A stretch of 64,000 nucleotides of DNA from Gaiellaceae bacterium. Lineage in GTDB: Bacteria > Actinomycetota > Thermoleophilia > Gaiellales > Gaiellaceae. The stretch lies in NCBI GenBank assembly GCA_021323315.1, contig JAJTCQ010000006.1, positions 26,731-90,730 of the forward strand, given 5' to 3'. The translations under genes were made by a program, and so were the position numbers. The first letter of the stretch is position 1. Every line of letters starts with the position of its first letter. Below, piece by piece: positions 143 through 42,900 of the stretch. The notes below the pieces were generated by a model. That model was not told the origin of the DNA. It ran no database searches and saw nothing but the letters and a program-made list of their open reading frames with translations.

Positions 143-148
143 TATGCT
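143..148 (+). promoter_or_regulatory. Candidate -10 element (TATGCT) for the small transcription unit
   Basis: TATGCT lies 30 bases after the end of the leftmost gene and would place a transcript start near base 155, just before an extended Shine-Dalgarno-like run. No convincing -35 hexamer is seen 16-18 bases upstream, so this is a weak promoter call on its own. Confidence 0.3.
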
Positions 149-178
149 GGCGCTACCGCGGAAAGGAGGTGGTCCGGC

Positions 179-220
179 TTGAGCGATGACAGTACGGGCA
201 GTGGAGGTACCAGCGGGTAG
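179..220 (+). CDS. Possible 13-residue peptide (TTG start) inside the RNA unit
   Basis: TTG at 179 follows the run GAAAGGAGGTGGTCC with about 9 bases between GGAGG and the start codon, which is ideal spacing. The frame reads MSDDSTGSGGTSG and stops at TAG 218-220. An overlapping ATG at 186 opens a 22-residue frame but is spaced too far from the SD. Whether either frame is translated is unknown; the SD may instead serve RNA function. Too short for family assignment. Confidence 0.25.
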   Translation: MSDDSTGSGGTSG

Positions 221-263
221 AGGCGTGCCCCCGGGACCACCGGGAACCGCCTAGCCAGCGTAG

Positions 264-319
264 GGGGCTCGCGATTCGCGCTGTGCGTGCCGGGGCTCGC
301 GATTCGCGCTGTGCGTGCC
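264..319. repeat. Perfect 28-bp tandem duplication
   Basis: Bases 264-291 and 292-319 are identical 28-mers beginning GGGGCTCGCG and ending GTGCGTGCC. A partial third copy (GGCTCGCG) begins near 324. Each copy holds the interrupted palindrome CGCGA-T-TCGCG. The repeats sit in the interior loop of the predicted long-range stem and could be a recent slippage duplication or tandem protein or RNA binding sites. Confidence 0.9.
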
Positions 320-371
320 ACAAGGCTCGCGCCGGAAGCGCCTCTACTAATCCAACGCTGGTATCCGTTTC

Positions 372-397
372 GAGGGGCCGCGGTGACGCGGCCCCTC
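372..397. terminator. Perfect 11-bp stem, GTGA loop: terminator-like hairpin
   Basis: GAGGGGCCGCG (372-382) and CGCGGCCCCTC (387-397) are exact inverted repeats around GTGA. The position fits a 3' end for the plus-strand RNA unit, and also for the minus-strand yceI/FMN-reductase operon that converges from the right. The U-tract after it is poor (GGCGTCTT) on plus and absent on minus. Confidence 0.65.
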
Positions 398-41010: not shown

Positions 41011-42900
41011 TCACGTCGCGTGCGCCTCCTCGAACAGCACCTCCCAGCGCGCGAGGAGCGCGGTGAGCTCGTCGCGGGCTGCCCGGTGCGCGGTCAGGAC
41101 GTCCATGTTCGTCCAGTCGTCGGAGAGGGTTCGCTCGATCTCGGCCACGCGTGCCTCGGCTGCGGCGATCTGGGCCTCGAGCCCCTCGAGCTCGGAGGGA
41201 GCACGCTCGACCGGCCGAGGGCGCGCCGGCTTCGCGGTGTCGACCGCTGGCGACGGCGCGGGCTCGGCTGGCGTCGCTGGTGCGCTTCGCTCGCGCTCCA
41301 AGTCGGCCCAGCCGCCGTCGTACGACCGCAAGCGCCCGTCTTCGATGGCGACCATCCGGTCGGGCACGGCGTCGAGGAGCGCCCGGTCGTGTGAGACGAG
41401 CAGCACCGTGCCGGGAAACGCCTCGAGCGCGGCCTCGAGCGCCTCGCGAGACTCGACGTCGAGGTGGTTCGTCGGCTCGTCGAGCACGAGGAAGTTCGAG
41501 CCGGAGGCGACGAGCAGCGCGAGCGCAAGCCGCCTTCGCTCCCCTCCCGAGAGCGCCGTGACGGGCCGCTCGTGTGTCTCCCAACCGGAGAAGAGGAAGC
41601 GGCCGAGCAGGTTCTGCGCCCGCGGGCGCTGCAGGCCGGTAGCGGCAGCCGTGGCATCGAGCACCGATCCGCTCGTGGGTAGCTCGAGCCCGTGCTGGGA
41701 GAAGTAGCCGGGGACGACTCCGTGCCCGAGACGGATCGACCCGCTCTCCAGAGGATGGCCGTCGAAAATCGCCGCGAGCAGGGTCGTCTTGCCGGCGCCG
41801 TTCGGGCCCACGAGCCCGACCTTCTCCCCGCGCTCGACGACGAGCGTCGCGCCGTCGAGGAGCTGCTTGTCGCCCGCGCGGAGCGTGACGTCCTCCGCCT
41901 CGAGGACGATCCGGCCGCTGCGCGGCGGGTCGAGGAAGTCGAAGCCCAGCGTGCGGCGCTTCTTCGTGAGCGACTCGATCTCGTGGCGTGCCTCCGAGCG
42001 CTCCTGCTCGAGGCGGGCGATCTGCGTGAGCTTCGCCTGCGCCTGCTTCGCCTTGTCCTTCTTGTAGCGGAACCGCTCGACGAAGCGCTCCAGCCGGGCG
42101 ATGTCCACCGACACGCGGTCTGCGGCCTTCCCCGCCGCCGTCGCCCGCGCGGCCTTTTCCTGGCGCCACTCGTGCCACGGGCCGGAGAAGTAGTGCGCGC
42201 CACCCGGTGCGAGCTCGAGCACCGATGTGGTGACGGCCTCGAGGAACCAGCGGTCGTGTGCGACGAGGATGACGCCGGCATCGATCGTTTCGAGCTCACG
42301 CTCGAGCCACTCGAGGTTCTGGACGTCGAGATGGTTCGTCGGCTCGTCGAGGAGGAGCAGGTCGGGGCTGCCCGCGAGCGCGCGCGCGAGCGACGCGCGC
42401 GTCAGCTCGCCGCCCGAGAACGTCCCGAGGGGGCGGTCGAGCGCGTGGTCGTTGAACCCGAGCCCGCGCACCGCAGCGGCAGCGCGGTCGCGCCAGCCCC
42501 ATCCACCCACGTGCTCGAGCCTGGCCTGCGCCTCGGAGTAGCGGCGAAGCGTGGCGTCGTCGTGCGCGCCCTCGGACATCGCGTTCTCCAGGCGTCGGAG
42601 CTCGCTCTCGACCTCGAGCAGGTCGCGGGCACCCGAGAGCGCGTACTCGCGGAGCGTGATGTCGAACTCGAGCGGCGGCCGCTGGTCATGGAGGGCGACT
42701 CTGGTCCCCTTCGCGAACGCGAGCTTGCCGCCCTGCAGCGACGTCTCGCCGGCGATCGCGCGGAGCAGGGTGGTCTTCCCGGCGCCGTTCGCCCCCGCCA
42801 GCGACAGGCGATCCTTGCGGCCGACGGTGAACGAGACGTTCTCGAACAGCGGATCGCCGGCGAACTCCTTGCGCAGCTCGGATGCGATGAGGACGGCCAT
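41011..42900 (-). CDS. ABC-F family ATPase (ribosome-associated)
   Basis: 629 residues with two ABC domains and no membrane helices. Domain 1: LAGANGAGKTTLLR, GTFSGGELTRASLAR, LLLLDEPTNHLD. Domain 2: LVGPNGAGKTTLLA, ALSGGERRRLALALLV, FLVLDEPTNHLDV. A basic linker (about 240-310; YKKDKAKQAQAKLTQIA) lies between them, and a C-terminal coiled coil follows (SELEGLEAQIAAAEARVAEI). ABC-F proteins rescue or reset ribosomes; some protect against antibiotics. Subtype not resolved. Confidence 0.9.
   Translation of the reverse strand: MAVLIASELRKEFAGDPLFENVSFTVGRKDRLSLAGANGAGKTTLLRAIAGETSLQGGKLAFAKGTRVALHDQRPPLEFDITLREYALSGARDLLEVESELRRLENAMSEGAHDDATLRRYSEAQARLEHVGGWGWRDRAAAAVRGLGFNDHALDRPLGTFSGGELTRASLARALAGSPDLLLLDEPTNHLDVQNLEWLERELETIDAGVILVAHDRWFLEAVTTSVLELAPGGAHYFSGPWHEWRQEKAARATAAGKAADRVSVDIARLERFVERFRYKKDKAKQAQAKLTQIARLEQERSEARHEIESLTKKRRTLGFDFLDPPRSGRIVLEAEDVTLRAGDKQLLDGATLVVERGEKVGLVGPNGAGKTTLLAAIFDGHPLESGSIRLGHGVVPGYFSQHGLELPTSGSVLDATAAATGLQRPRAQNLLGRFLFSGWETHERPVTALSGGERRRLALALLVASGSNFLVLDEPTNHLDVESREALEAALEAFPGTVLLVSHDRALLDAVPDRMVAIEDGRLRSYDGGWADLERERSAPATPAEPAPSPAVDTAKPARPRPVERAPSELEGLEAQIAAAEARVAEIERTLSDDWTNMDVLTAHRAARDELTALLARWEVLFEEAHAT

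Follow-up and report, generated by a model that had tools for sequence, protein, structure and literature searches.

Locus and architecture of the RNA unit

The window analyzed here, a 64-kb stretch of DNA from a soil actinobacterium (Gaiellaceae bacterium), carries near its start an intergenic unit (positions 143 to 398) flanked by an O-methyltransferase gene (plus strand, end at 112) on one side and an FMN reductase gene (minus strand, 514 to 1074) on the other. The initial annotation had read the unit as a free-standing structured RNA between convergent genes, with a −10 box, an extended Shine-Dalgarno (SD) sequence, a tiny open reading frame (ORF), two long-range stems, and a terminal hairpin. 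The convergent flanks and all of these elements are present, and the free-standing character is supported by a promoter-like box and a terminator-like hairpin belonging to the unit itself and by the relatives, which keep the structure. All features described below are on the plus strand.

The −10 box, TATGCT (143 to 148), was recognized by eye from the sequence and its aligned relatives, which have TAnnnT at the same place; no clear −35 box lies upstream of it. It stands about 6 nt before the inferred start of a transcript of about 245 nt (155 to 398), placed by the onset of conservation at 155 (query position 46 in the DNA search described below) and by a covariance model match from 155 to 367. 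Transcript positions 2 to 5 (CCGC, 156 to 159) pair with GUGG at 201 to 204, within the ORF, to form a helix, P0. Its loop holds a complement of the 16S rRNA 3′ tail, GAAAGGAGGTGGTCC (161 to 175), within which the SD lies, and the start codon of the mini-ORF (TTG179 to TAG220, 179 to 220; 13 codons, MSDDSTGSGGTSG). A single unpaired base separates P0 from P1. The latter, initially given as 208-215/356-363, lengthens to 206-215/356-365 with one G-U pair, and P2 (217-225/339-347) forms 9 of 9 pairs, with the stop codon TAG220 in its 5′ arm.

P2 encloses P3 (227-232/263-268), a Gaiellales-type domain, and a short hairpin, CGC-CUAGCCA-GCG (248 to 260), which is nearly invariant across relatives and whose structure is unproven by covariation because it shows no double changes. 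A further hairpin, P4 (CGCG/CGCG, 270 to 280), at the base of a variable region, is missing from some relatives. The unit ends in a terminator-like perfect 12-bp hairpin with a GTGA loop (371-382/387-398), the tail of which is U-poor in the window and U-rich in relatives; a terminator scan made no call at this hairpin. P0, P3, and a 28-nt tandem duplication go beyond the initial annotation. The duplication consists of two perfect head-to-tail copies (264-291/292-319) within the variable hairpin, was seen in none of the relatives checked, and is either a recent event or an assembly artifact. In the window's genus, GGUGGUCC and GGACCACC (168 to 175 with 234 to 241) could form an 8-bp pseudoknot and so hide the SD in its 3′ half; other genera retain just GGUC/GACC, without covariation.

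Folding and covariation

The two long-range helices had been judged unlikely to arise by chance. Folding energies agree, as the 206-to-365 domain folds 4 standard deviations below dinucleotide shuffles (0 of 200), the signal being weaker for the whole transcript (z = −2.7). Conservation and compensatory changes in close relatives, on which the initial annotation had staked its own refutation, were both found. Among 23 distinct relatives, 94.8% of cells were paired versus 33 to 49% with the partner slid, and over the whole structure, 36 cells carried double changes against 8.0 in shuffles (0 of 500). The excess persisted in 72 phylum-wide sequences (255 double-change cells versus 61 shuffled, 0 of 500) and in 25 sequences from outside the class (108 versus 33, 0 of 500); across the three alignments, sliding the partners lowered pairing to 23 to 50%. 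Judging from these alignments, P1 and P2 covary strongly. The moderately unusual folding energy of the whole transcript would suit helices formed by chance in GC-rich intergenic DNA, a reading whose probability we consider negligible, being refuted by the phylum-wide conservation and by compensatory changes that none of 500 shuffles matched.

P0 was first found by a naive script and then confirmed on columns fitted to R1, a covariance model built from 23 sequences (the window and its relatives) that does not include P0. Over the 72 sequences it was 97.2% paired, with 25 double-change cells versus 2.7 in shuffles. P3 covaries within the clade (98.6% paired, double changes at three pairs).

Distribution and relationship to Ms_IGR-5

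A DNA search with positions 110 to 410 found matches in 51 of 61 related genomes, including 23 of 24 of the good ones. R1 matched 136 of 249 genomes of the class, almost always in single copy, and 45 of 297 genomes of the phylum; R2, a wider model with more homologues than R1, matched 153 of 397 Actinomycetota genomes, nearly always with one copy. The exact pattern of the window type occurs in 69 public records titled Thermoleophilia or Actinomycetota, mostly metagenome assembled, apart from one titled Burkholderiales (L221); the latter bears a Gaiellales-type RNA and is probably a misbinned or mislabeled contig. One related genome (G046) has two copies (C114:3526-3653 and C90), one of which scores 84.7 bits with a model from outside the class and resembles the wider actinomycete type, pointing to transfer or contamination. 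Another homologue (L010, at G029:C79) keeps an intact 5′ half and runs from the P3 region straight into a terminator-like hairpin that stands in place of the 3′ half, leaving P1 and P2 without 3′ arms.

The unit had been put forward as an undescribed RNA that no common family fits. With regard to Rfam thresholds, the latter statement stands: searches of the window at gathering and permissive thresholds returned chance matches only, with no match at the locus to 6S or any other family. Against RF02471 (Ms_IGR-5), the window fell below the gathering score (45 bits), with no match even at E values up to 10, and RF02471 searched directly in relatives was over the cut-off in 0 of 21, with the same noise in control genomes. 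Covariance models, however, reveal a divergent homologue of RF02471, and do so in both directions, which removes the RNA from the undescribed. R1 finds RF02471 members, and 12 of the 26 distant loci tested reach RF02471. Conversely, a third model, R3, takes its letters solely from sequences outside the window's class (RF02471 members included), aligned by means of R2, a model already informed by the window. Across the 64 kb, R3 hits a single place, positions 155 to 367 (61.6 bits, E = 1.7e-11). R3 also matches 46 of the 61 relatives. By these models, the window RNA is almost certainly a homologue of Ms_IGR-5. Because the outside-class model reaches the window though Rfam's does not, it appears to be a divergent variant lying outside the curated family.

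The window RNA and RF02471 members share the covarying P0-P1-P2 core, the 5′ end (A-C-N-N...GGAAAGGAGGUGGUCC), the extended SD, the position of the mini-ORF and its end at the P1/P2 junction, and the terminal hairpin; they differ in the extra P3/CGC-GCG domain within P2 of the window RNA. In 16 non-Gaiellales sequences, GGAC in the ORF can pair with GUCC in the loop of the terminal hairpin, a loop that the window's hairpin does not have. For hexamers chosen by eye in these 16 sequences, 0 of 5,000 shuffles reached the observed value in a fixed-position test, and a generic longest-complement test between the ORF and the terminal loop was not significant (5.62 versus 5.51 ± 0.18). Since only the former was significant and its hexamers were picked by eye, this pairing is likely, not proven, for the non-Gaiellales members and is inapplicable to the window.

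In the Rfam consensus structure of RF02471 (aligned on L122 and L070), P0 and P1 are missing, and the SD is paired instead with the 5′ arm of P1. Across 25 sequences, one side of this SD-masking helix is all but invariant, and double changes are absent. Because P0 and P1 have many, the consensus structure seems wrong in its 5′ half on the comparative evidence and should, in our view, be revised.

Curated RF02471 matches come mainly from mycobacteria, streptomycetes, and close relatives, and Rfam classes the family as an sRNA. Ms_IGR-5 is already known as an actinobacterial sRNA, catalogued as noncoding; in M. smegmatis, IGR-5 is overlapped by ncMSMEG15794c (PMC10454040), and the S. lividans Ms_IGR-5, SLIV_16488, has RNA-seq support (PMC8079986). 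No function for it was found in the open-access literature searched. As far as we can tell, the new elements are the family's occurrence in Thermoleophilia and numerous further lineages, helix P0 with the corrected core structure, a mini-ORF that is universal and whose stop is fixed, and a 16S complement that is both full length and unique. The range of Ms_IGR-5 is widened to much of Actinomycetota.

The mini-ORF

The mini-ORF is the most telling conserved feature of the unit, a point overlooked in the initial annotation. An ORF of 10 to 15 codons was present in all 112 homologues examined (72 plus 40 held out), which are related by descent, so that the counts are not independent events. Its stop lies at a fixed place, 12 or 13 nt past the first P1 base, in 72/72 (TAG in 69, TGA in 2, TAA in 1), and an in-frame start was found 7 to 12 nt after GGAGG with no intervening stop, again in 72/72 (ATG, GTG, or TTG in 65, near-cognate codons in 7). 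The other two frames satisfied this rule in 7 and 0 of the 72, and spacer shuffles did so in 15%. With the rule unchanged, the 40 held-out homologues, retrieved with R2, a model blind to reading frame, all had the stop (TAG in 31, TGA in 8, TAA in 1), with 32 strong starts and 8 near-cognate ones; here the other frames gave 3 and 0. Distances from the SD to the stop fall into all three classes modulo 3, and the start thus tracks the frame. The conserved UAG could largely be kept by P2 pairing, although UGA and UAA occur as well.

The encoded peptide behaves differently. It varies between clades, and the codons covering the conserved GAGGU are GGA-GGT in one or some clades and GAG-GTG in others, which argues that the peptide is not the conserved entity. 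Within the window's own clade a pattern is discernible (M-x-x-x-S-T-G-S-G-G-T-S-G, with in-frame 3-nt indels), and this, together with the open conserved frame, is what one would expect if the unit were a mini-gene with the 10- to 15-residue peptide as product and the structure merely stabilizing the mRNA. We consider such a gene quite improbable, since not just the peptide but even its reading register against the conserved RNA core changes between clades, and since in 45 Gaiellales the third positions of codons −4, −5, and −7 are invariant too, a constraint therefore acting at the RNA level. The ORF invariably terminates where P1 meets P2, and one strand of each of the helices P0, P1, and P2 is therefore made of its final codons together with the stop. 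Going by sequence comparison, the mini-ORF is very probably translated, and it is translation, not the peptide, that appears to be conserved.

An SD, a mini-ORF, competing helices, and a terminator-like hairpin in series are also the anatomy of leader-peptide attenuators, in which helices compete with the ribosome. The reading of the whole unit, with the ORF, as leader or attenuator of an operon lying downstream is nevertheless largely refuted, and we hold it to be very improbable: no same-strand gene lies downstream, the next gene here being convergent, the terminal hairpin closes the stand-alone unit, and the peptide is unconserved. Nor are any neighbors shared between clades, the upstream gene encoding an O-methyltransferase here and an aminotransferase-like protein in mycobacteria (crude ORF calls, the mycobacterial identity being inferred).

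Complementarity to the 16S rRNA 3′ tail

The stretch GAAAGGAGGTGGTCC can pair over 15 nt with the 16S rRNA 3′ tail, GGATCACCTCCTTTC, with 14 Watson-Crick pairs and one G-U; GGATCACCTCC is the 3′ end of the 16S genes in two congeners. The pattern GAAAGGAGGTGRTCC was present in 13 of 21 relatives. In these 21 genomes it occurred outside 16S at most once per genome, at this RNA where coordinates were compared, its remaining occurrences lying only opposite the 16S gene. The P0 loop that holds the complement and the start codon measures 31 to 49 nt (median, 42), comparable in size to the footprint of a 30S subunit.

The stand-alone gene with its promoter-like box and terminator-like hairpin, and the Rfam class, would equally suit an ordinary trans-acting base-pairing sRNA in which the ORF is incidental. 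This seems improbable to us, as the ORF is found in 112/112 with the start following the frame (the other frames scoring 10 and 0 of 112), and among the unpaired stretches it is the 16S complement, rather than a seed, that is conserved best. Because the ORF lies beside the 16S-tail match and its stop at the same junction in every homologue, being read by ribosomes is probably part of how the RNA works.

Leaderless mRNAs are common in actinobacteria, and the main rival to the gating mechanism proposed below, with which it is compatible, is an anti-SD decoy. The RNA would use its full-length complement, next to a weak start, to tie up the free 16S tail or entire 30S subunits, lowering SD-led relative to leaderless translation. 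The size of the P0 loop fits such a role, as does the absence of the full 15-nt complement from any other non-16S site in 21 genomes, and start codons are mostly weak (TTG in 51, GTG in 27, near-cognate in 15, and ATG in just 19 of 112). A pure decoy would have no need of a frame that closes at a single structural site, but such a frame is present in 112/112; some clades use ATG, and titrating ribosomes would demand a very abundant RNA. We regard the decoy as unlikely, though still worth considering.

A possible translation-gated RNA

Our preferred reading, which we rate at about an even chance, is that the locus is a stand-alone RNA gene of about 245 nt, a divergent relative of Ms_IGR-5 of Thermoleophilia/Gaiellales type, encoding a structured RNA gated by translation. 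Structure, ORF position, frame, and 16S complement are established by comparison, and from these we infer the steps of gating. With the 5′ end paired into the ORF through P0, the loop displays the near-full-length 16S-tail complement and the start codon, and an initiation complex could dock there while the RNA stays folded. Elongation up to the stop would then melt P0, P1, and P2. As docking would spare the fold and elongation would melt the helices, ribosome occupancy would switch the RNA between two states, one open and translated, the other closed and folded, translation and folding being mutually exclusive if this geometry is correct. One of the two forms might then act in trans on a protein, ribosome, or mRNA, a guess prompted by the fact that no gene follows the RNA and that neighbors are not shared. 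The gating mechanism itself is tentative, plausible but somewhat doubtful. That these RNAs constitute a phylum-wide class with translation itself as the conserved input, its members serving on their own as sensors of, or decoys for, free 30S subunits, is a possibility that we advance with still more reserve. The gated reading predicts that Ms_IGR-5 is ribosome bound and translated, including in M. smegmatis and S. coelicolor. If true, a conserved RNA would be reading ribosome availability in a phylum rich in leaderless translation.

Among known systems, Ms1 and 6S RNA resemble the unit in being stand-alone actinobacterial structured RNAs of similar size; to our knowledge, no ORF or SD has been described in them. 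Both are actinobacterial RNA polymerase-binding RNAs (PMC4191392, PMC9130861). With tmRNA the unit shares its stand-alone character, a tiny ORF, and pairing over long range; neither tmRNA nor a tRNA-like domain was detected at the locus by ARAGORN or Rfam. tmRNA is not known to have an SD and start of its own, and the window RNA does. Elsewhere in the window, ARAGORN called a tRNA-Gly (42435 to 42517, minus strand) that is absent from the Rfam results at threshold and is possibly false or degenerate.
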